The translations under genes were made by a program, and so were the position numbers. Shown here piece by piece: positions 38,997 through 50,231 of a DNA stretch of 64,000 nucleotides. Origin of the DNA: an uncultured Selenomonadales bacterium (GTDB taxonomy: Bacteria > Bacillota > Negativicutes > Acidaminococcales > Acidaminococcaceae); assembly GCA_900316935.1 (NCBI GenBank), contig ONEW01000006.1, forward strand, positions 1 to 64,000, written 5' to 3'. Within the stretch, counting starts at the first letter, position 1, and the number at the start of each line of letters is the position of its first letter. The notes below the pieces were generated by a model. That model saw nothing but the letters and a program-made list of their open reading frames with translations, made no database searches and was not told the origin of the DNA.

Positions 38997-39551
38997 TCAA
39001 GGTCCCTTTGCAGGAGTTGCCGCAGCAGCCCGGGCACAAATCTCCAACATCGCTTCGGCGAAAGAATTTTCCGGTACAGGCAGCCATTTCCCTTCGCCTT
39101 CCTTCGTATCCAGCAAAGTCCCTTTGCTGCCGTATACATCCATTTGCTGAACCGTATAGGTCTTTTCCGCCAAGTGGAATTCCATCTGCAACAGGCAGTA
39201 CTGGGTCTTCTCCTTTGTTACCAGCTTTTTAGCGAACTTTTTGTCCATCTTCCTGACCAGGTCTTTATTGGTAAAGACCGTCTTCACCGTAGTCTGTACC
39301 AGGTTCCGGTCTTCCCTGCCGTTGCCCGCCCCAAAGGCAAGGGATCCCATATCGTATGCGTAGATTCCGATATCGTTTTCCAGGATGAGGGACCATTGCG
39401 GCCCTTGAGGGGCCTGATCCGCTCCATCGGCATTCATGCTGATGCTCCAGTCCACCGGTTTTTCCGGGACCGGTTCCGTTTTCTGTGCCGCAGCAGCCGG
39501 ATTCATATAAAACAGAGTGCACAAAATCAGTAACGATAAAACTTTTTTCAC
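38997..39551 (-). CDS. Small secreted protein of unknown function
   Basis: A 184-residue exported protein. The signal peptide covers residues 1-22 (LSLLILCTLFYMN, then AAA/AQ). The mature part has beta-strand-like stretches with WSLILENDIGIYAYDMGSLAFG and YCLLQMEFHLAEKTYTVQQMDVY. It recalls surface-adhesin E-like or other DUF periplasmic proteins of Negativicutes, but identity is unsure. A GTG start at 39551 is chosen because AGGAGG is 6 nt upstream and a clean signal peptide begins there. Confidence 0.55.
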   Translation of the reverse strand: MKKVLSLLILCTLFYMNPAAAAQKTEPVPEKPVDWSISMNADGADQAPQGPQWSLILENDIGIYAYDMGSLAFGAGNGREDRNLVQTTVKTVFTNKDLVRKMDKKFAKKLVTKEKTQYCLLQMEFHLAEKTYTVQQMDVYGSKGTLLDTKEGEGKWLPVPENSFAEAMLEICARAAAATPAKGP

Positions 39552-39625
39552 AACGTCCTCCTGAAAATCCACTAAAATTCCTGCGTATTTCATGATGATG
39601 TATCCGCCTTACTGTGATTTCCTCT

Positions 39626-41014
39626 TCACCAATTCCACAGATGCAACCGATAGGCGCCAAGAATGCGTCCCTCCGGTGTCAGGGCCGGTGCCTCGACGGC
39701 AGCCATCTGCCGGCCGTCGGCGCTGATACCCACCGCTTCACAAGGCCCTTCCGTCGTAAAGGAGGCAAGCACTTTCCCATCCCGCAGGCGGAGGATCTGC
39801 GCGCCATGGACCTTGTAATCACGGGTCCGCACGTTGCGGCCGATGGCAACGGCAGCCACGCCCTGGGCAAAGGCCAGGGCAGCCATGGTTCCTCCGGCCC
39901 GGACCTGATACAGGAACCTGCCTTCCGGGGAAAAAGCAAACAGGCTGTTGTCGCTGGGATGGGTGACCGGCGTCGGCAGCTGCCAGTTTTCCCGGTTAAA
40001 TGTGTTGATGGTCGTAAAGAACACGCCTTCCGGCAGAATGTAGCCGTCCCGTCCGGACGCATTGAGCCAGGATCCGTCCACCTTGGCAGGTTTTGACAAA
40101 AACCGCCCCCAGAGGACCTTGCCCGTATCATCCAGATAGAAGGCACGGCCATCACTGGCCATGCCGGCCAGGTGCTTCCCGTCCGCACCAAAGTTCGGGC
40201 TGCAGCGCATCACCGTGTTGTCAAAAGGGGGAACCGGCTCGATAAACACTGAATCCAACAACCGTCCCGTCTTCTTGTCCAGAAAATACAGCGTGTCCTT
40301 ATACTTCATTTCCGGCCGGAAATCGTAGGCCGACGTCGCCAGCACAACGCGCTCCCCTGCGGGACTGACATCGCACCAGTTGATCCAGCTGTCTATGGCT
40401 TCCTGCTCCGGAAATGCCCAGCGCTGCCGGCCGGACTTGTCCAGGGAAACCATGCGGCCCGTATAACTGCGGTTTCCGGCGCTGTCGATAAGGAAACGGT
40501 AGAAATTGACGTACTGGTTTTCCTCGCCATCCACTGCAATATGTACCGCGGCCGGAAACGACCGGTTGGAAGGGTCGGTTCCAATCAGGTCCGCCCCTTT
40601 ATACCGGTACCGGATATCTCCCGTCCGAACGGAGAGGGCGTAATAAAAGCCGTCTGCGCTGGATTCCCCGACGTATGCCGTATCCCCTTCCGGAGAAACA
40701 GTCAGGGAGACAAGCCGCCCGCTACCCAGGGAACGCTTCCAGCGCTGCCGGCCCTGCCGGTCGAACAGAAGCAGCTCGCCCCGGTCCGTTCCGACAAGCC
40801 AGGCGTCCGCTTTTTTTGCATAGGCAATCCGGGCTCCGGTGAATCCCATGCGGTTGTAGTTCTGCACCGGAACATCGCCCAGGTAGGCCGTAATTCCGTC
40901 TTCCTTGCCGTTGTCCCGCAATACCCAGGGTGTACGGTTCCCCGTCAGCCAGAAAAGACAGAGGCACGAAGCCAGAAAAGCGGTGGCCAGGATGATGTCT
41001 TTCATATGCTTCAT
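39626..41014 (-). CDS. Exported beta-propeller (PQQ/WD-like) protein of the ECF locus
   Basis: A 462-residue protein anchored or lipidated at its N terminus: hydrophobic residues 7-24 contain LASC, a possible lipobox. About seven propeller-like repeats follow, such as LLLFDRQGRQRWKRSLG, MVSLDKSGRQRWAFP, FYLDDTGKVLWGRFL and SLFAFSPEGRFLYQV. It lies 19 nt after EcfT. Eight consecutive G at 41023-41030 serve as its ribosome site, 8 nt before the ATG. A role as extracytoplasmic partner of the transporter is inferred; no ligand is known. Confidence 0.65.
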   Translation of the reverse strand: MKHMKDIILATAFLASCLCLFWLTGNRTPWVLRDNGKEDGITAYLGDVPVQNYNRMGFTGARIAYAKKADAWLVGTDRGELLLFDRQGRQRWKRSLGSGRLVSLTVSPEGDTAYVGESSADGFYYALSVRTGDIRYRYKGADLIGTDPSNRSFPAAVHIAVDGEENQYVNFYRFLIDSAGNRSYTGRMVSLDKSGRQRWAFPEQEAIDSWINWCDVSPAGERVVLATSAYDFRPEMKYKDTLYFLDKKTGRLLDSVFIEPVPPFDNTVMRCSPNFGADGKHLAGMASDGRAFYLDDTGKVLWGRFLSKPAKVDGSWLNASGRDGYILPEGVFFTTINTFNRENWQLPTPVTHPSDNSLFAFSPEGRFLYQVRAGGTMAALAFAQGVAAVAIGRNVRTRDYKVHGAQILRLRDGKVLASFTTEGPCEAVGISADGRQMAAVEAPALTPEGRILGAYRLHLWNW

Positions 41015-41022
41015 GGATGGCA

Positions 41023-41030
41023 CCCCCCCC
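41023..41030 (-). repeat. G8 homopolymer acting as ribosome-binding site
   Basis: A run of eight C on the plus strand (G8 in the mRNA) lies between the EcfT stop and the propeller-protein ATG. It is the only Shine-Dalgarno-like sequence for that gene. Homopolymers of this length can slip, so expression could vary. Confidence 0.6.
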
Positions 41031-41033
41031 GCC

Positions 41034-41909
41034 TTACAGATAGAGACTCGAAAAATCATAAAAACCGCGCAGCGGACCGGCGTACAGTCCCTGCTCGGAC
41101 AAAAGGAAACTGATTTTGCTGAAGACGACGGCCAGCGTGGCCAGAAGGAACAGCAGGCAGAGCCAGCGTTCCCTTCCATCCCACTGCTGGCGCCGCCGGG
41201 CCGCCTTTTCCGAAAAGGAACCCCGGCTTACGACAGAAAGAGCCAGTGTCTGGGAGCGGCGCAGGCAGCGGGCCAAAAGCGGCTTGGCCACATAGGGAAG
41301 ATGACGGATTCCTGTAAAGGGGCCCTTTGCCTTCTGGTCACGCAGCCGCAGGGCAATCAGGATCTCCTCTGTTTCCGATGCCAGGACAGGCAGAAACCGG
41401 ATGGCCGTCACAAGCATGAAAGCAATCTGGGGAGACAGGTGCCAGGCCAGCAGTCCGTTCAGGAGCTGCCGCGGGTCACTGGTCCAGCAGACCAGCATTC
41501 CCAGGGAAAGCATGCTGACGGTACGCAACCCTTGGACGGCGCCGTAAAGGATGCCTTCGCGGTAAACAGAAAGCCCCCCTGTCAGCGTCCCTAAAAACGG
41601 TGTCCCCGGCGCAATCAGGACGAGGAGGGGCGTCCTCGGCGTCCTGGCGAAGAACAGGGCCTGACTCAGCATGGAACCCCAAAGGCCCAGTAAAATCAGG
41701 AGGATGAGGACCCGCCACTTGGAAAGGGAGGTGCCGGCCAGGCCATGGAGCAGGAGTGTAAAAAGGAACAGGATGTACAACGTGCGGGGATTGTCAATGG
41801 TGATCATCAGGACGGCATAAAGAAACAAAAAGACCAGTTTCGTGCGGCCGTTCAGATTCCGGATCCACGGTTTGGCATCAGTTCCTTCCCAGAGTTGCCG
41901 GACCGACAC
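41034..41909 (-). CDS. ECF transporter T component (EcfT)
   Basis: A 291-residue transmembrane scaffold of an energy-coupling factor transporter, with membrane segments clustered at about 25-105 and a final one near 250-270. The two coupling-helix Ala-Arg-Gly motifs of the CbiQ/EcfT family appear as ALRLRDQ and SVVSRGSF near the C-terminal part. The start is a GTG at 41909 with AGGAGG 9 nt upstream, overlapping the ATPase gene by 32 nt. It should couple the double ATPase to the S-like protein encoded in the same run. Confidence 0.85.
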   Translation of the reverse strand: MSVRQLWEGTDAKPWIRNLNGRTKLVFLFLYAVLMITIDNPRTLYILFLFTLLLHGLAGTSLSKWRVLILLILLGLWGSMLSQALFFARTPRTPLLVLIAPGTPFLGTLTGGLSVYREGILYGAVQGLRTVSMLSLGMLVCWTSDPRQLLNGLLAWHLSPQIAFMLVTAIRFLPVLASETEEILIALRLRDQKAKGPFTGIRHLPYVAKPLLARCLRRSQTLALSVVSRGSFSEKAARRRQQWDGRERWLCLLFLLATLAVVFSKISFLLSEQGLYAGPLRGFYDFSSLYL

Positions 41910-43656
41910 AATGACACACCTCCTCCACGGTAATGCAGGGCGGAATCCCCAAGGCCCCGGACACGGCGAGAACCGGCGGCGCCACGAGTCCGCCTGCCGC
42001 AAGCAGGTCCCGCCGCGACAGGACGTCGAAAACCGTACCGTAGGCCAGCACACGCCCCTGGTTCAAAAGCAGGACATGATCCGCCAGACAGGATGCAAGC
42101 TCCACGTCGTGGGTGCACAGCAGCACCGTGCCGCCATGATCCCTGTAGTGGCTGAGCAGGGCCGCAATTTCCTGCAGGCTGGCTTCGTCCTGCCCTGTCG
42201 TCGGCTCGTCCAAAAGGAGCAGCTTCGGCCGCCAGGCAAAAAAGGAACCCAGCACGGTGCGCAACCGCTGTCCCTTGCTGAGCGCCAGCGGAAAATCATC
42301 CCGACATGGCTCCAGATGAAGCCGCTGCAGCAGGGCTTCCGCTTCCGCATCCGTCAGCGTATCGTTTTTCCATTTCAGCTCTTCCCAAACAGTACCGGCG
42401 AGAAGCATCAGGTCCGGTTCCTGCAGCAGATAGCCTGTGGAACCCCGCTGCCGGGCCAGGGGCCCCCCTTCGAACAACAGCCGCCCTGCCGAGGGTCCGG
42501 TCAATCCCCCCAGCAGGTTGAGCAACGTGGATTTGCCTGCCCCGTTGCAACCCATCAACGCAATGATTTCCCCTGCGTTCAGGGAAAAGGAAACCTCTTT
42601 CAACACATCTTCCGTCGTTCCCGGATACCGGAAGCAGACTTTCTCTGCCTCCACCAGGGGTCTCCCGTTCCGGCCCGTCTCTCCCGTTTTCCCGCCCGGG
42701 CGGGAGGAAGACTGGTGTTTTCCTGCACCCCCTGACCGCTCCGCTTCCACCGCCGGCACCGGACGGCAGTACGTCTTGATTTGCAGCACGGTCTGTGCCA
42801 CATCCGAGGAAAGTTCCGGCAGCCCCAGGACCCGCCCCAGCTTGACGCACTGCGGCTCCCGGAGACCTAGGTTTTCGCGGCCGGTCAGGAACGCCCAGGC
42901 AGCCTGAAGAGGACCGTCGTACACAATGCGCCCTTCCCTCATGATTGCCAGGCGGTGGAAATAGCAGGCCAGCTCGTTGACGCGGTGCTCTATCATCAGG
43001 ATGGCGATTCCCTCTTCCCGGTTAAGACGGAGCAAAAGTTCCATAAAGTCCTGAACGCCCCGGGGATCCATCTGGCTTACCGGTTCATCCAAAATGAGCA
43101 GACGCGGTTTGCCGATCAAGACGGAAGCCAGGGCCATCCGTTGGCGTTGGCCGCCGGAAAGCTGGTGAATCCCCCGCTTTTCCAGACCCGCCAGGCCTGT
43201 CAGTCCGAGAATCTCTTCCACCTGGTCGTGGACGGCCTCTGGCGCCTCTCCCTGATTTTCCAAGGCAAAGCCTGCCTCATCCTCTACCGTCATGGCAAAA
43301 AGCTGGTCATCCGGGGTCTGGTAGACCGTACCGGCCAACAGGCCGATCTTTTCCGGAGGCCAGTCCGCCATATCCTCGCCATTCCAAAGGACGGTCCCTT
43401 CCCGACGTTCCTGTCCCTCTCCCGACACAAGGCCGCTGATGACCTTGATGAGGGTCGATTTGCCACAGCCGCTGCGGCCGGCCAGGAGGAGCATTTCCCC
43501 GGATTCCAGAGACAGGCCGACATGGCGCAACGTATCGCTATGCCGCCCTTTGTAACGGAACGAGACGTCGCGTAATTCCAGCATCGGGCGCCTTTCGGCA
43601 GTACACGGATGATGCATTTGTTGCATTTCCTGATTCCTCTTTTCCACTATGCTCAT
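41878..43656 (-). CDS. ECF-type double ATPase (EcfA-EcfA' fusion)
   Basis: A 592-residue protein with two ABC ATPase domains. Domain 1 has GRSGCGKSTL, LSGGQRQR and LLILDEPVSQMDP with EHR as H-loop. Domain 2 has GCNGAGKSTLL, a variant signature LSKGQRLR and LLLLDEPTTGQDE with THD. A Gly/Ser/Arg-rich linker (about 310-340) joins them. It should energise EcfT and the S-like protein. The ATG at 43656 overlaps the upstream stop (ATGA); starts at 43626 or 43584 (AAAGG 6 nt upstream) are also possible. Confidence 0.88.
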   Translation of the reverse strand: MSIVEKRNQEMQQMHHPCTAERRPMLELRDVSFRYKGRHSDTLRHVGLSLESGEMLLLAGRSGCGKSTLIKVISGLVSGEGQERREGTVLWNGEDMADWPPEKIGLLAGTVYQTPDDQLFAMTVEDEAGFALENQGEAPEAVHDQVEEILGLTGLAGLEKRGIHQLSGGQRQRMALASVLIGKPRLLILDEPVSQMDPRGVQDFMELLLRLNREEGIAILMIEHRVNELACYFHRLAIMREGRIVYDGPLQAAWAFLTGRENLGLREPQCVKLGRVLGLPELSSDVAQTVLQIKTYCRPVPAVEAERSGGAGKHQSSSRPGGKTGETGRNGRPLVEAEKVCFRYPGTTEDVLKEVSFSLNAGEIIALMGCNGAGKSTLLNLLGGLTGPSAGRLLFEGGPLARQRGSTGYLLQEPDLMLLAGTVWEELKWKNDTLTDAEAEALLQRLHLEPCRDDFPLALSKGQRLRTVLGSFFAWRPKLLLLDEPTTGQDEASLQEIAALLSHYRDHGGTVLLCTHDVELASCLADHVLLLNQGRVLAYGTVFDVLSRRDLLAAGGLVAPPVLAVSGALGIPPCITVEEVCHCVGPATLGRN

Positions 43657-45362
43657 TCCCCGGCAATCTGCTGCAATTTTTCCCCGGTACGGTATCCCAG
43701 CCAGCCGCCGATGCTGCTGTACAGCACACCGTTGACAAGCATATAGAGGATGATGTACCAATCCGCATAATACAAGCGGTAAAAGAACATCATCTGTTCC
43801 AGATTGATAAACCCGATGAGGGCATCGCCCATCCCTAAAAGGATGACCACCGCCAGCATATGTCCCCTGTCCATCCTTTCCGTACGGTAGAAACCGCTGC
43901 AGCGCAGCACCGTTTCCAAGACAGCGATGTAGACGGCCGTGCTCAGGATCCCCAGCGGGGTAAAGCGGCCGAAAAAGATTCCGTTCAAAAAGAACTTCAG
44001 CAGAAACAGCAGGGCCGTCACGCCTGGTTTCCGATACAGCATCAGGAGTGCCAGCAGCAGGAGATATTGCATCACGCCGCTCAGAAGGCCGGTAAAAAAC
44101 GTGGAAAAAGGGCCCAGCAGGGCATGGACGACATCCCCTAAAAGCGTCGCCGGCACCGTGACTCCGCCGAACGATACGGCGGCAAACAAGGCAGCCGTAA
44201 TGGCACCTCTGGCGCCGATGGTCCGGATGCAATCCATCATATCCCGCAGATAAAGAATGGCCAGCAACAGGCAGGCAAAGGAAACTCCGACAGACAGCAG
44301 GCCCAGGCTGTGTTCTTTATCCAGGATCACGGGAATTTCCATCCCCTTTTGTTGTCCATTGCCTTCGACCGTCAGCCGCAGGCGGTACTCCCCTTCCAGC
44401 GCCTGCAGGGGATCGACATACAAGGGCAGGATGAAGGCCTGCATTTTACGGCCGTCCAGGGAAATGAGCGCCGCCGTCCCCTCCCCGGTTCCGGTTTCAC
44501 CGGCCCAGCCTTCACCGGATTCGTGATCCGAACGCCCCGCCGTCACCAGCCCCGGAACCGGACGCCCGTCTTTATCAAACAAACGGGCACGGACCCGGAG
44601 CAGCCGGACATCCTGCTGTGGATTCCGCATATCCAGCAGGAAATAGGCCGCCGGATGGGAAAAAATGACGCCATAGCCATTGTTCCTTTCCCCCGTCATA
44701 CGGTTGCGGAAATTCTCCCATAACGTATCCCGGACATACAGAACGCCTTCCGGCGAACGGTCGTCCCGGTTTCCCTGATTGTCCACCGGCAGTGTGACAG
44801 ACTGGATATACCAGTGGAAGCGGTCCCCCTTCCTTGTTCCGGTTCCAGGTGCCGCTGTACGCCTTTCCGCCAAGGAGGAGGCACCACCGGCCGCCGACGT
44901 TTCCCCGGATTCTTCTTTCCCACCATCCGGCAAGTATCGGAACGGCACTGTACGGCTTGTCCCTGCCGGTCCGGTTCCTGTCAGGGAAAGATGGACCTGG
45001 ATTTCCTTATTCCCCGCCGCCGTCCCTTCCAATGCCCTGACATACAGCAAATCGAAAGCGCGGCCATACCCGGCAGCCATGTGCCAGATACACCGGCCCC
45101 TGCGCCGGTCCGGGGCAATCCGCCATCCTTCTTTGGGAAGCAGCTCGAATCCTTCCGGCACCGTAACCGAAAGGGCGGCGGTCTGCTCTTCCGGATCATC
45201 CGTACAGACCAGATCCAGATAGAGCGGCACCGTACCCAGCCCCTGTACCTGTTCGATTTTCCGATGCTCCATGCTGTAAGGGAAGACTGCATTCAGTCTG
45301 CAGGCTGCCAACGCAGGCCGGACAAGAAACAGTACCGCAAACAGGATACACACGAAACGCAT
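43653..45362 (-). CDS. ECF S-component-like membrane protein with large extracytoplasmic domain
   Basis: A 569-residue protein. A signal peptide or first anchor (1-19, ends ALA-A) is followed by about 330 residues predicted outside the membrane: beta-rich, with Cys near the start (CRLNAVF, LVCTDD, GRCIWHM) and a Thr/Gly/Ser-rich linker. Residues about 351-569 hold six or seven membrane helices and end in VNGVLYSSIGGWLGYRTGEK, like the last helix of ECF substrate-binding S components. The 4-nt overlap with the ECF ATPase gene supports the role. The ligand is unknown. The start at 45362 has AGGTGG upstream. Confidence 0.65.
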   Translation of the reverse strand: MRFVCILFAVLFLVRPALAACRLNAVFPYSMEHRKIEQVQGLGTVPLYLDLVCTDDPEEQTAALSVTVPEGFELLPKEGWRIAPDRRRGRCIWHMAAGYGRAFDLLYVRALEGTAAGNKEIQVHLSLTGTGPAGTSRTVPFRYLPDGGKEESGETSAAGGASSLAERRTAAPGTGTRKGDRFHWYIQSVTLPVDNQGNRDDRSPEGVLYVRDTLWENFRNRMTGERNNGYGVIFSHPAAYFLLDMRNPQQDVRLLRVRARLFDKDGRPVPGLVTAGRSDHESGEGWAGETGTGEGTAALISLDGRKMQAFILPLYVDPLQALEGEYRLRLTVEGNGQQKGMEIPVILDKEHSLGLLSVGVSFACLLLAILYLRDMMDCIRTIGARGAITAALFAAVSFGGVTVPATLLGDVVHALLGPFSTFFTGLLSGVMQYLLLLALLMLYRKPGVTALLFLLKFFLNGIFFGRFTPLGILSTAVYIAVLETVLRCSGFYRTERMDRGHMLAVVILLGMGDALIGFINLEQMMFFYRLYYADWYIILYMLVNGVLYSSIGGWLGYRTGEKLQQIAGE

Positions 45363-45411
45363 TGAACCACCTGAAAAACCCATACCCCTATGACGCAGAA
45401 AAACCACAAAA

Positions 45412-45434
45412 GGGGAGAGATATTCTTTCTCCCC
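45412..45434 (-). terminator. partial terminator between the TonB receptor and S-like genes
   Basis: A 7-bp stem (GGGGAGA arms, 45412-45418 with 45428-45434) with a 9-nt loop is followed on the minus strand by TTTTGTGG and T5. It could reduce rather than stop transcription into the ECF genes, since no clear new promoter was seen in the 95-nt gap. Confidence 0.55.
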
Positions 45435-45457
45435 CCTCATCAATAATTGGCGAAACA

Positions 45458-47452
45458 TCAGAATCTGTATTTGTATTCCAGAAGGAAGTTGCAAGGCGTT
45501 GCGTAGTATGCTGACGAGCTGTGGCTGATGACATCGTCGCGGTTCAGCAGGTTATCAATCACCAGGCTGATATCGTTATGCTTGTCTGGTTTGTAGTTTG
45601 CAGTCAGCGTCGTCAGGAAATAAGGCCGCTCATCATAAGAATGCGCAGACGACGGGGTACGGACGCGGTCGCCCAGGAAGCTGCCGCTGAGATTGGCGTC
45701 AAATTTGCCCATGGTGTAACCCACCCCGCCGGTCAGCTGATATTTGCCGAACTTGCTGTCCCAGTATTCCTTCGATGTACTCTTGCTCTTGGGATTCTGC
45801 AGGTTCACCGCCCAGTTGTAGGACCAGGCGCCTTTGGCTTTCACCGTATCCCCGAATTCAAACCCGTAGTTTTTAAAATCCTCGTTCTTGTACTGATATT
45901 CATCATTTGTCCACGTGGCTGTGATGTTGTCCTTGATCCGCACCCGGTACAGGGCGGCCTTCCAGTTGTGGGCGCCGGCGATGCGTTTCCAGCCGATTTC
46001 GTAGTTGATGCCTTTCTGCGGTTTCAAGGCCGGATTGGCGATTGCCTGGTAACTGGAAGAATACATCTGTGCAAACGTGGGAAGGATGAAGGACTGGGCA
46101 ACACTGGCATACAGACTGTCATCTTCATCCAGCTTATGGATGAACTGACCGGCGGCACTGAAATTACTGTAGTTCATGCCGTTGTCGGCATCGGTCGTCC
46201 AGGTTTCACGGCCGCTGAGGATGAAGGAGTTTTTGTCGTCAAACTGCTGGTCCCATTGCCCGAAAACACCGAAAACGTTGCGGGAATAGTCGGAATCCGT
46301 TTTTGTGGTATGCGTATAAAGGCTCTGGTAATTTTCCCGTTTGTAGTCAAAGCCCAGAATCGCCTTTGCCTTCTCCCCCACCTTCCAGTTGCGCTGGATG
46401 TCGGCCCCGATGGTGCGGTTCTTTTCGCGGGTATTGTAAAAGTAGGAGGAACTGGTCGGTTTCACAACAGAGCCCGCCGAAGTAAAGTAGGTGTTGCCCC
46501 GGGACTCTACCGTTCCTGTTACGAAATACAGGCTTCCTTTATAATCCTTATCATTGTACAGCATTTCCGCCATGTGCTGTTTTGTAGTGTATTCCCGGTT
46601 ATTAAAGTCGGCACCGGCCTGCATGGTATTCTTTGCGGATTCAATCACCTGGCGCAGATAATTGGCTTTCGTTTCAAAATAATGATAATTGAAACTCAGG
46701 TTATCATTCGCATTATAATTGAGCCCGACATTCTGCCGGCGGATATTGTTCGCCTTGGTCTGCGTCTTGCCGATTTCCTTATTCCTTGAAGTAAGCGTGG
46801 AAACAGAGATGCGGTTCAGTGTATTATCCCATTTCTCTTCATCATAGGATACTTGGAATTTATTTGTCCCGACGTTGGCGCCAAACGTCTTCCGTCCGAA
46901 ATTGCCGATGCCGGCCTTGACATAATTATCCGCAACCTTCTTCGTAATGATGTTGATGACACCGCCCATCCCCTCGGATCCGTAGAGTACAGAGCCGCCG
47001 CCCTTCACCATTTCAATACGTTCAATGTCGTCGGCGCTGATGGCTTCCAGGTTATATTTGCCGCGCCAGTTGACCGGGTTGCCGTTGACGAGGACCAGCG
47101 TACCGTTATCCACACCGCGGATGATGGCTTCGTTGATCATGGTGCCCATGGAGGCACCGGCCGGGCCGAAAGATTTATAAGTTACGCCAGGCAGCTTCTG
47201 CAGTACCATGGCAAGGTTTTTGCCTCCGGTCTTGCGGATGTCTTCCCGGTTCAGCACCTCCGTGCTGGCAGGGACATCCACGTCGCGGCGCTCGTCACGG
47301 GTTGCCGTAACCACGACCTGGTCAAGCGTGAACTGCTGCAGGGCATCGGTGCCCTGGGCAGCCGTTTCTGCCGGAGCTGCGGCTGCCGAACCTGCAATCA
47401 ACAGCGTCATGAGTGTACTGACGGATACAGTTTTTGCGGAACGTTTCATCAT
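45458..47452 (-). CDS. TonB-dependent outer-membrane receptor
   Basis: A 664-residue outer-membrane gated porin. The signal peptide ends near residue 26 (AGSAAAA). A TonB-box-like stretch (FTLDQVVVTATR) precedes the plug domain (about 55-165: EVLNREDIRKTGGKN, IIRGVDNGTLVLVNG, EMVKGGGSVLYGSEGMGGVINIITKK). The 22-strand barrel ends in EYKYRF with terminal Phe. It is downstream of exbB-exbD-tonB and upstream of an ECF transporter set. The substrate (siderophore, haem, cobalamin or other) cannot be read from sequence. Confidence 0.93.
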   Translation of the reverse strand: MMKRSAKTVSVSTLMTLLIAGSAAAAPAETAAQGTDALQQFTLDQVVVTATRDERRDVDVPASTEVLNREDIRKTGGKNLAMVLQKLPGVTYKSFGPAGASMGTMINEAIIRGVDNGTLVLVNGNPVNWRGKYNLEAISADDIERIEMVKGGGSVLYGSEGMGGVINIITKKVADNYVKAGIGNFGRKTFGANVGTNKFQVSYDEEKWDNTLNRISVSTLTSRNKEIGKTQTKANNIRRQNVGLNYNANDNLSFNYHYFETKANYLRQVIESAKNTMQAGADFNNREYTTKQHMAEMLYNDKDYKGSLYFVTGTVESRGNTYFTSAGSVVKPTSSSYFYNTREKNRTIGADIQRNWKVGEKAKAILGFDYKRENYQSLYTHTTKTDSDYSRNVFGVFGQWDQQFDDKNSFILSGRETWTTDADNGMNYSNFSAAGQFIHKLDEDDSLYASVAQSFILPTFAQMYSSSYQAIANPALKPQKGINYEIGWKRIAGAHNWKAALYRVRIKDNITATWTNDEYQYKNEDFKNYGFEFGDTVKAKGAWSYNWAVNLQNPKSKSTSKEYWDSKFGKYQLTGGVGYTMGKFDANLSGSFLGDRVRTPSSAHSYDERPYFLTTLTANYKPDKHNDISLVIDNLLNRDDVISHSSSAYYATPCNFLLEYKYRF

Positions 47453-47545
47453 CTCAAACCCCTTTCAAAAAACAAATGATCCTGTCTTCCATCCCTATAC
47501 TTCATCCTTCCCGGTTTCCCCATTCTGCACTACAAGGAAATCCTG

Positions 47546-48232
47546 TCAGCGCAGCCGGAACGCGAAGGGCTGATAGGCATAACAACGTACCGGTCTGCCG
47601 TACCCGTCCAGGCCGGGGCGGAAACGGAATCCTCGTGCCGCACCCAATGCAGCCTGATCCAGGGCACCGTTTCCGGAAGAACGCGCCAGGGTCAGATCTT
47701 CGACGCCGCCGTCCTTCCCAATCAAAAAGCGTACCACCGCCGTACCTTCAATTCCGTTGTTACGGGCGGAAGACGGATATTCCGGAGAACGGGAACGTGT
47801 TACCCGGGGAGCTACGGCCGGCGCCTGAATGGAATCGCCGGCCGGTCCCACCCCTGCACCTTCTCCGCCGCCGGACCCGCCCGAGCCAAGCCCTTCGCCG
47901 GTCCCACTGCCCGTACCGCCTGCAGTACGGTGAATCGAGGCTTGTGATTGTTTGGCTGCTTTATGATGCTCCCGCCGAACAATGGTTCTTTCTTCTACAA
48001 GATCGTCCGGCCGGGGTTGGACCTCTTCTTCCTCTTCATCCGGTTTTTCCGGATTTGCCCGGTCTTCCAAAGGAGCCGCGTCACCACCGCCACTCATGAG
48101 AGCCACATCATAAATGGTTTCTTTTGCAGGCGGGCGGCAGGAATATAAGGCCACAGCCCCGGCCAGGGCAAAACAGATAATGTGGAAGACGAGGGAAATG
48201 ACAAGGCCCTTTTTTCCATCTTCATGTATCAT
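47546..48232 (-). CDS. tonB: TonB family energy transducer
   Basis: A 228-residue protein with an N-terminal membrane helix (about 9-30), an acidic stretch (EKPDEEEEEVQPRPDD), a Gly/Ser-rich linker (about 103-132) in place of the usual Pro-rich spacer, and a C-terminal TonB domain (about 145-228: YPSSARNNGIEGTAVVRFLIGKDG, ALDQAALGAARGFRFRPG). It transmits proton-motive force from ExbBD to the receptor. It overlaps exbD by 4 nt and lies 93 nt before the receptor gene. Confidence 0.9.
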   Translation of the reverse strand: MIHEDGKKGLVISLVFHIICFALAGAVALYSCRPPAKETIYDVALMSGGGDAAPLEDRANPEKPDEEEEEVQPRPDDLVEERTIVRREHHKAAKQSQASIHRTAGGTGSGTGEGLGSGGSGGGEGAGVGPAGDSIQAPAVAPRVTRSRSPEYPSSARNNGIEGTAVVRFLIGKDGGVEDLTLARSSGNGALDQAALGAARGFRFRPGLDGYGRPVRCYAYQPFAFRLR

Positions 48233-48642
48233 TTCTTTGCTTCCTTATCCGTTGCCAGTCCGACACGGGAAATGCCGGCTTTCTTGAACTCATCCAAAAG
48301 GTGGATGACTGCTTTATAAGGAACATTTTCATCAGCACGGATGACGACGGCGAAATCCTTGTCCTCTTGCATTTCCTTGCGCGCCTGATGGAGGAGCTGT
48401 GCTTCCCCGATCACTTTGTCGCCCAGCCAATAGGCGCCATCGTCCTTGATGGTGACACTGAACTTGACGGCGCTCTGTGTGACAGTCTGCGCCGCCACCG
48501 GCAGTTTGACAGGAATCGTCCGCAGTTCGCTCATGTACATGGTACTGACAATGAAGAAGATCAGGAGCAGGAACATCATGTCAATCATGGGACTCAGCAT
48601 GATTTCCGGCGGCCTCTTTCCCCTTTTCCGCAACTTAATCAT
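48229..48642 (-). CDS. exbD: ExbD/TolR family biopolymer transport protein
   Basis: A 137-residue protein with one transmembrane helix (about 20-38) carrying the essential Asp in SPMIDMMFLLLIFFIVS, and a periplasmic domain. It pairs with ExbB as the proton-driven motor of TonB. The ATG at 48642 overlaps the exbB end by 8 nt, with AGGGCGG upstream. It could be TolR, but the tonB and receptor context favours ExbD. Confidence 0.9.
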   Translation of the reverse strand: MIKLRKRGKRPPEIMLSPMIDMMFLLLIFFIVSTMYMSELRTIPVKLPVAAQTVTQSAVKFSVTIKDDGAYWLGDKVIGEAQLLHQARKEMQEDKDFAVVIRADENVPYKAVIHLLDEFKKAGISRVGLATDKEAKK

Positions 48643-49282
48643 GGCTGATCCGCCCTTCCCGTACCGTATCCAGGTTTTTGGCAATGGCTTCGAGCAACGT
48701 GTTGCTCATCTCTTCCAAATCCATCGAAATGCCTTTCAGGCGCCGTTCAAAATAGGCGTACATCAAGATGGCGACAATGGAGATGCACAGACCGAAGACC
48801 GTCGTAATCAGGGCTTCCCCGATACCGGCCGTCACAGCCAGCGGATTGTCCAGCCGCTGGTTGAAATTATTGAAGGACCCGATCATGCCCGTAACGGTAC
48901 CCAGCAGGCCCAGAACCGGAGCAAGGGTGACAATGACATTCAAATAGTTAAGGTGGTTTTCAAACTTGTCCAGGGCCCGTTCTGCCCGGGCGGAGATGAA
49001 GCCTTCCAGGCGTTCGAATTTGCCGTGGCGGTCCATAACGATGGTTGCCAGTTTGGCGATTTCCCCCTGTGTCTGATCAGCCAGGTCCTTAGCGGAAAGC
49101 CAGTCATCGTTCTCAATGTCGCGGCAGAAGGATTTGGTGAAACCGTGCCCGCTGTCTGCTTTCTTAAAAAACAGATACCGCTCCACGGAAATCGCAATGG
49201 CGGCAATGGAACACAGCAGCAGGGGATACATGACGGGACCGCCCTTGATGAAATAATCCAATCCGGCAGCAAAAACATTCAT
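48635..49282 (-). CDS. exbB: ExbB/TolQ/MotA family proton channel protein
   Basis: A 215-residue inner-membrane protein with three membrane helices (about 10-30, 115-137 and 155-175). Conserved are LNVIVTLAPVLGLLGTVTGMIGSF and ALITTVFGLCISIVAILMYAYF. It forms the pentameric channel around ExbD. AGGAGG lies 8 nt before the ATG. It is the first gene of the exbB-exbD-tonB-receptor run. Confidence 0.93.
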   Translation of the reverse strand: MNVFAAGLDYFIKGGPVMYPLLLCSIAAIAISVERYLFFKKADSGHGFTKSFCRDIENDDWLSAKDLADQTQGEIAKLATIVMDRHGKFERLEGFISARAERALDKFENHLNYLNVIVTLAPVLGLLGTVTGMIGSFNNFNQRLDNPLAVTAGIGEALITTVFGLCISIVAILMYAYFERRLKGISMDLEEMSNTLLEAIAKNLDTVREGRISHD

Positions 49283-49393: not shown

Positions 49394-49427
49394 AAAAAAA
49401 GGGGCGGATGTCAAGAAACACCCGCCC
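49394..49427 (-). terminator. intrinsic terminator of the feo-ZIP operon
   Basis: A 10-bp stem (49402-49411 with 49418-49427, one G-U) with a 6-nt loop is followed on the minus strand by C and seven T (complement of 49394-49400). It separates the ferrous iron locus from exbB. Confidence 0.88.
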
Positions 49428-49442
49428 AAACAAGGAGTTAGT

Positions 49443-50231
49443 TCAACCCAACATGACATCCAGTGCCATCATCAGGGAGAAACCTGCAGCAAAGGCCATT
49501 GTTCCGATATCGGAATGCTCCCCTTCCGACATTTCGGGGATGAGCTCTTCCACGACCACGTAGAGCATGGCTCCCGCCGCGAAACTTAAAAAATACGGCA
49601 GCAGCGGCAGCATATACTCGATGGCCGCAATCATGAACAAGGCACCGATAGGTTCGACGATGCCCGAAAGGACACCGTACGTGAAGGCTTTCAAACGACC
49701 GTCCCCTTCCCCTTTGAGTGGCAGCGAAATAATGGCCCCTTCCGGGAAGTTCTGGATGGCGATGCCCAGGGACAGGGCCATAGCCGCTGCCCCGGAAATC
49801 GTCACACTGTCATGTACATAGCCTGCGTAGACTACGCCGACGGCCATGCCTTCGGGAATATTATGAAGCGTCACGGCGAGGACCAGTTTGGCTGTCCGGG
49901 AAATCCGTACGGCCGGTCCTTCAGCGTGTTCGCTGTTCATATGGAGATGAGGAATGATATGGTCCAGCAGCAGCAGGAAGAGCACACCGGCCCAGAACCC
50001 CGCTACAGCGGGGACAAAAGCCGGCTGCCCTGAAGCTTCCGCCTGATCCATGGCGGGAATCAGCAAGCTCCAGACGGAAGCTGCCACCATGACACCGGCA
50101 GCGAATCCCGTAAAGGCACGCTGCACCGGTTTGTGCAGGCTGCCCCGCACGAAGAAGACGCAGGCGGCGCCCAGCGCCGTTCCTGCAAAAGGGATCAGAA
50201 TACCACGGATTACTTCCAAGGGCAGATACAT
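49443..50231 (-). CDS. ZIP family divalent metal transporter
   Basis: A 262-residue membrane protein with about eight helices. The metal-binding signatures are VTLHNIPEGMAVG in helix IV and NFPEGAIISLPL in helix V, with EELIPEMSEGEHSD near the end. A His-containing loop (HIIPHLHMNSEHAEG) lies between helices III and IV. It resembles ZupT/GufA-type importers of zinc, iron or manganese. It follows feoB and the FeoB-associated gene on the same strand, which suggests shared metal control. Confidence 0.9.
   Translation of the reverse strand: MYLPLEVIRGILIPFAGTALGAACVFFVRGSLHKPVQRAFTGFAAGVMVAASVWSLLIPAMDQAEASGQPAFVPAVAGFWAGVLFLLLLDHIIPHLHMNSEHAEGPAVRISRTAKLVLAVTLHNIPEGMAVGVVYAGYVHDSVTISGAAAMALSLGIAIQNFPEGAIISLPLKGEGDGRLKAFTYGVLSGIVEPIGALFMIAAIEYMLPLLPYFLSFAAGAMLYVVVEELIPEMSEGEHSDIGTMAFAAGFSLMMALDVMLG

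Follow-up and report, generated by a model that had tools for sequence, protein, structure and literature searches.

A TonB-linked ECF transporter operon in Negativicutes as a candidate two-membrane corrinoid uptake system

Corrinoid makers and corrinoid users both occur among the gut Negativicutes and, to our knowledge, the inner-membrane B12 transporters of many bacteria are unassigned. The fold of BtuG, a protein tied to B12 uptake, is a propeller. Among the described systems, BtuB-BtuG complexes are found in Bacteroides (PMC10404256), CbrT is the cobalamin ECF transporter of Lactobacillus (PMC5997447), and BtuM, an S-component homologue present mostly in Gram-negative bacteria, was predicted from its co-localisation with btuB (PMC6072759). 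For the locus studied here, described in a preliminary form before, S-type transport behind an outer membrane thus has precedents, in BtuM (PMC6072759) and in the cobalt receptors of TonB type that were predicted earlier (PMC7689651).

The window (the whole 64,000-nucleotide stretch of DNA that was analysed) carries eight open reading frames on the minus strand that run from 49282 to 39626 as a single operon. These are listed below, followed by two features located upstream.

48635..49282, minus strand: exbB, 215 aa (PF01618, MotA_ExbB, E=7e-27)
48229..48642, minus strand: exbD, ATG at 48642 (PF02472, E=3e-29)
47546..48232, minus strand: tonB, 228 aa, one N-terminal membrane helix (PF03544, TonB_C, E=3e-20)
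45458..47452, minus strand: TonB-dependent receptor (TBDR), 664 aa (plug PF07715 and barrel PF00593, TonB_dep_Rec)
43653..45362, minus strand: S-like subunit, 569 aa, ATG at 45362 (alignment, AlphaFold2 and hydropathy)
41878..43656, minus strand: fused double ECF ATPase, ATG at 43656 (two ABC_tran domains; ECF_ATPase_1, 299 bits)
41034..41909, minus strand: EcfT transmembrane coupling subunit, 291 aa, GTG at 41909 (PF02361, CbiQ/EcfT, E=3e-25; TIGR02454)
39626..41014, minus strand: beta-propeller protein (AlphaFold2 pLDDT 90; PQQ/BamB/WD40-type repeats)
49394..49427, minus strand: GC-rich hairpin and T-run 5' of exbB (sequence and alignment with locus L025)
49443..50231, minus strand: ZIP-family (ZupT-like) metal importer, directly upstream, a possible functional neighbour (PF02535)

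The exbB and exbD genes overlap by 8 nt and exbD and tonB by 4 nt, while the TBDR gene is flanked by gaps of 93 nt after tonB and 95 nt before the S-like gene. The latter overlaps the double ATPase gene by 4 nt, which in turn overlaps the EcfT gene by 32 nt; the gap from EcfT to the propeller is about 19 nt or more, with the propeller starting at ATG 41014 or 41005. These ORF coordinates bear out the order, overlaps and gaps first reported for the eight same-strand genes. According to the profile matches, the TonB system is complete (ExbB, ExbD, TonB and a plug-barrel receptor), and the ECF transporter is recognisable by its CbiQ-type EcfT and by two ECF-type ATPase domains, both with intact Walker A, signature, Walker B and H-loop motifs. 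The length and start region of EcfT match those of its relatives, and the N-terminus of the TBDR bears a TonB-box-like DQVVVTATR motif.

The hairpin upstream of exbB is either the zupT terminator or an operon leader/attenuator. Together with the 15 nt before it, the hairpin/T-run is conserved 5' of exbB in L025 (1-260), the sequence further upstream being dissimilar. The adjoining ZupT-like gene may encode a linked importer of cobalt or zinc, and a homologue with 54% identity lies directly upstream of a riboswitch-TBDR-S cassette in another family (L044, 6261-7076). On the other side of the operon, positions 38997-39593 of the window encode a small secreted protein with weak Adhesin_E similarity, which recurs by the cassette in Acidaminococcaceae (L025, L031, L033, L034 and L039).

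Among 380 Negativicutes genomes, 49, from 15 families, have the S domain, and the named records with close relatives belong mostly to the Acidaminococcaceae (Negativicutes). The order S, double ATPase, EcfT, propeller (hereafter the cassette) is kept in 26 of 27 mapped loci, the exception being L050, where the propeller precedes S. In 19 loci a TBDR gene is found no more than about 10 kb from the cassette, and fewer loci have ExbBD/TonB genes close to it. The complete set of eight components also occurs, differently arranged, in L031, L044, L047 and L050. Since the same components recur in different orders and in different families, their grouping is not due to chance. The TonB-ECF linkage is therefore recurrent across loci, with a variable gene order. 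The preliminary description had treated the TonB and ECF parts as one locus, which agrees with the TBDR and/or ExbBD-TonB genes found beside the ECF core in other families; a consistent splitting of the two parts in related genomes was looked for and is not the case. It had proposed to look for the eight-gene order across Negativicutes; the components recur there, but the exact order is common only to the window and its close relative G008 (locus L025, 73-95% identity).

Two further observations were made on these loci. Many Acidaminococcaceae carry an ABC exporter gene (ABC_membrane and ABC_tran) directly 3' of the propeller gene (L026:11670-13379, L029, L031 and L037). Moreover, a GenBank contig labelled Acholeplasmataceae carries the present Negativicutes locus (L036/L042) and agrees in gene layout and length with a contig from a genome of the window's family, and this label is probably wrong.

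The S-like protein, encoded by a single-copy gene in the window's own genome (G000), consists of a signal peptide, beta-sandwich periplasmic domains of about 330 residues (~21-349) and a polytopic membrane domain (~352-568). Its AlphaFold2 model (mean pLDDT 82) is a beta-sandwich up to residue 349 and all-helical from residue 352. An alignment of 32 homologues displayed the signal peptide and a linker that varies, whereas the membrane domain is strongly conserved and carries LGPF and Y-R-x-Y-Y-A-x-W motifs, as well as an [AS]LF[AG][AT] small-residue pattern in the first core helix. The membrane domain contains one near-invariant His, no conserved Cys and no conserved set of metal ligands.

The S-like protein had no Pfam or NCBIfam family match, and scanning the family and its isolated domains against Pfam gave no significant match to known S families, with one weak exception: one of ten isolated S domains tested, from a relative, matched PF09819 (ABC_cobalt permease component, which we take to be an ECF S family) at E=0.0018. 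HHalign comparison with the PF12822 S components gave non-significant E-values of 0.03-0.05 with two larger sets (probability about 2% or less), four control membrane families having higher values (E=0.09-0.68). The search of solved structures with the S-like profile returned no real match, and the fold search with the whole model listed only Ig-like folds, which came from the periplasmic part. Profile comparison did not establish the S-component identity proposed earlier for this membrane domain. We infer from gene context and exclusion, not from homology, that the protein is the S component, since the core, from which the ATPase, EcfT and the propeller are never missing, has no other polytopic membrane protein besides EcfT.

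The propeller gene was present in all 27 related loci analysed. Its product has no convincing Pfam family and is predicted to have one N-terminal membrane helix or signal and to face the periplasm. The lack of a significant S-family profile match and the purely Ig-like fold matches would also suit a scheme where the S-like and propeller proteins act in envelope assembly or sensing, and where the S component used by EcfT and the ECF ATPase is encoded at another site. However, the S-like membrane domain is the only other multi-helix integral membrane subunit of the conserved core and is never absent from it, its size and helix content fit an S component, and it carries the [AS]LF[AG][AT] pattern. 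We therefore regard this scheme as improbable and retain the S-component reading.

The cargo was approached through regulation, receptor affinities and genome context. In relatives of several families, the TBDR, exbB or S gene is directly preceded by a cobalamin riboswitch. Same-strand cobalamin riboswitches were found within 5.5 kb upstream of S in at least 17 of 42 genomes (0.36 expected) and within 1 kb in at least 5 of the 42 (0.07 expected), these genomes being related and not phylogenetically independent, so that Poisson p-values for the counts overstate their independence. The best NCBIfam match of the TBDR was TonB-B12, with 137.9 bits, below the BtuB equivalog cut-off of 599.7 bits; the haem-receptor model TIGR01785 also scored. 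In the receptor tree, the window TBDR grouped (support 98/96) with that of L040, the latter being located 108 nt downstream of a cobalamin riboswitch and followed, as in the window, by S, ATPase, EcfT and propeller genes. These two receptors next join a set including the Phascolarctobacterium faecium TBDR, likewise preceded by a riboswitch, while E. coli BtuB is distant.

The window itself gave no Rfam match. A cobalamin riboswitch in it was rejected, as none was detected around the operon even at relaxed thresholds, and near-upstream riboswitches were absent in all eight cassette-bearing genomes of the window's genus. The operon has either lost riboswitch control or never had it, so the cargo in the window species is deduced from its relatives. 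Three cobalamin riboswitches occur elsewhere in G000: the first adjoins a BtuR/CobS-like region, the second precedes a CbiD/G/J/E/A-like operon (adjacent genes being named from sequence inspection, except CbiD) and the third, a weak match (35 bits), precedes a giant adhesin-like ORF of 3548 aa (L081 2158-13031, C27).

The missing riboswitch, the FeoB and ZupT-like genes nearby, the TIGR01785 score and the precedent of a haem ECF transporter in Staphylococcus lugdunensis (PMC7299338) could indicate that the operon of the window's genus imports haem, iron-siderophores or other metal chelates, its cargo having diverged from that of the relatives. Nevertheless, the closest outgroup of the TBDR is preceded by a riboswitch and has the same gene order, and the genome contains CbiZ and cbi genes. 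A Fur box was rejected too: upstream of exbB, only AT-rich 10/14 matches to one were detected, no better than several other sites of the window. The iron hint of the preliminary description was accordingly not borne out, and a haem or iron-chelate cargo seems very unlikely.

CbiZ is a corrinoid-salvage amidohydrolase acting on imported corrinoids. Its gene was present in 38 of the 49 genomes with the cassette versus 71 of 331 without (Fisher p=2e-14), in 15/20 versus 3/39 within the window's family and in 6/8 versus 1/6 within the genus, these counts not being phylogenetically independent. In G096 it closely precedes S, and in G057 it is found about 1-2 kb upstream. Other recurrent neighbours of the cassette in relatives encode CobN, a ChlI/ChlD-type chelatase, BtuF-like and BtuD-like proteins and a CbiK-family protein, the latter with an apparent signal peptide in several relatives. 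In Phascolarctobacterium, a CbiD/G/H/J-like operon neighbours the cassette. Moreover, a DUF4198 protein gene in a genome of the same genus (L037:18567-19379) adjoins a TBDR gene near the cassette; the mature N-terminus of its product may be a histidine, and it is a possible metal-binding partner.

CbiD was found in all 35 high-quality cassette-bearing genomes and in 214 of the 234 high-quality genomes of the class. These 35 bacteria thus make the corrin ring, and none is an auxotroph that needs scavenging. The occurrence of the cassette in auxotrophs, as a proof of scavenging, was therefore rejected, no high-quality cassette-bearing genome being without cbiD. G000 also keeps three FecCD permeases, one of them adjoining a binding-protein-like gene, and the earlier statement that the ECF importer replaces a binding-protein ABC importer was too strong.

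Several of these features are shared with the main rival reading, according to which the operon imports cobalt or a cobalt chelate for de novo B12 synthesis, the TonB receptor delivering it to the periplasm and the ECF complex to the cytoplasm, in place of CbiMNQO. Cobalt importers are also found under cobalamin riboswitches (PMC7689651), so that such a riboswitch would suit corrinoid and cobalt alike. The constant presence of cbiD, the DUF4198 protein and the chelatases (CbiK and CobN) near the cassette in relatives, and the cbi genes of the window's genus, which is without CbiM (PF01891 had no match in the operon or in G000), also favour cobalt. On the other hand, CbiM, a separate cobalt S component, is also encoded by 23 of the 42 genomes with the cassette, which implies that the cassette is not simply the sole cobalt importer. 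The absence of CbiM from the genus is independent of the cassette, and a role of the cassette as CbiM substitute was rejected, no anti-correlation being seen within the family. The S-like membrane domain has no conserved metal-ligand set, a ZIP metal importer already adjoins the operon, and the cassette tracks CbiZ. Because CbiM coexists with the cassette, CbiM loss in the genus is not tied to it and CbiZ tracks it strongly, corrinoids are favoured over cobalt, which we consider an unlikely cargo.

Taken together, these comparisons suggest, with somewhat better than even confidence, that the operon encodes a system which carries corrinoids (cobalamin, other cobamides or cobinamide-type precursors) inward across both membranes. 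Corrinoids, already among the candidate cargoes first proposed, have strong comparative support from the riboswitches, the receptor tree, the nearby B12 genes and cbiZ in relatives, and are the best-supported cargo as judged from sequence. Counting against this reading are the lack of a riboswitch in the window and its genus, a TBDR score well below the BtuB cut-off, an S domain that had no significant S-family match and the absence of auxotrophs among the 35 high-quality genomes. In the proposed mechanism, the TBDR would bind the corrinoid outside the cell, and ExbB-ExbD-TonB and the proton gradient would drive its passage into the periplasm. There, it would be received or presented by the anchored propeller together with the beta-sandwich portion of the S-like protein. 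The S-like membrane domain would bind the corrinoid and dock on the double ATPase and EcfT, its release into the cytoplasm being powered by ATP. The roles of the periplasmic domain and of the propeller, like the cargo in the window genome, are those that we infer.

The operon could tentatively represent a new family of ECF transporters, so far confined to diderm Firmicutes of the class Negativicutes (380 genomes of the single class searched), in which a corrinoid S component is fused to a periplasmic receiving domain, accompanied by an obligate anchored beta-propeller and wired to a TonB receptor, leading from the outside to the cytoplasm in one operon, and used by B12 producers to recapture and remodel corrinoids with CbiZ; on balance we lean slightly against so complete a picture. 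No description of an ECF-TonB-propeller system in Negativicutes was found in the open-access literature, a scope outside which most subscription journals fall. If the corrinoid reading is right, a candidate corrinoid importer can be named for Negativicutes, an ECF system is genetically linked to its own outer-membrane step, and the fused architecture suggests how an S component might accept cargo handed over by a TonB receptor.

Like BtuB-BtuCDF, the system combines a TonB receptor with an ATP-driven inner-membrane step, often under cobalamin riboswitches, but its core has an ECF module instead of a binding protein and a FecCD permease. It resembles CbiMNQO in its CbiQ-type T subunit, its ECF ATPases and its occurrence in cobalamin-riboswitch regulons, whereas the operon contains no CbiM family match and its S-like subunit is unrelated. 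With BtuM it would share the import of B12 by an S-type protein after a TonB-driven passage of the outer membrane; BtuM, however, is a solitary 22-kDa protein without ECF module, and no sequence family common to it and the S-like protein was found. BtuG is likewise a propeller protein tied to a B12 TonB system, but it is a surface lipoprotein on BtuB, whereas the window propeller is predicted to be anchored and to face the periplasm; the resemblance is one of fold type. Finally, ECF-CbrT also has an ECF module with T subunit and ATPases and the corrinoid cargo predicted for the window operon; CbrT is a bare S component of a monoderm, in contrast to the fused periplasmic domain, constant propeller and linked TonB genes described here. 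What appears to be new is thus that, in Negativicutes, an ECF module and a fused periplasmic domain are combined with a TonB receptor and with a propeller that is both anchored and obligate.
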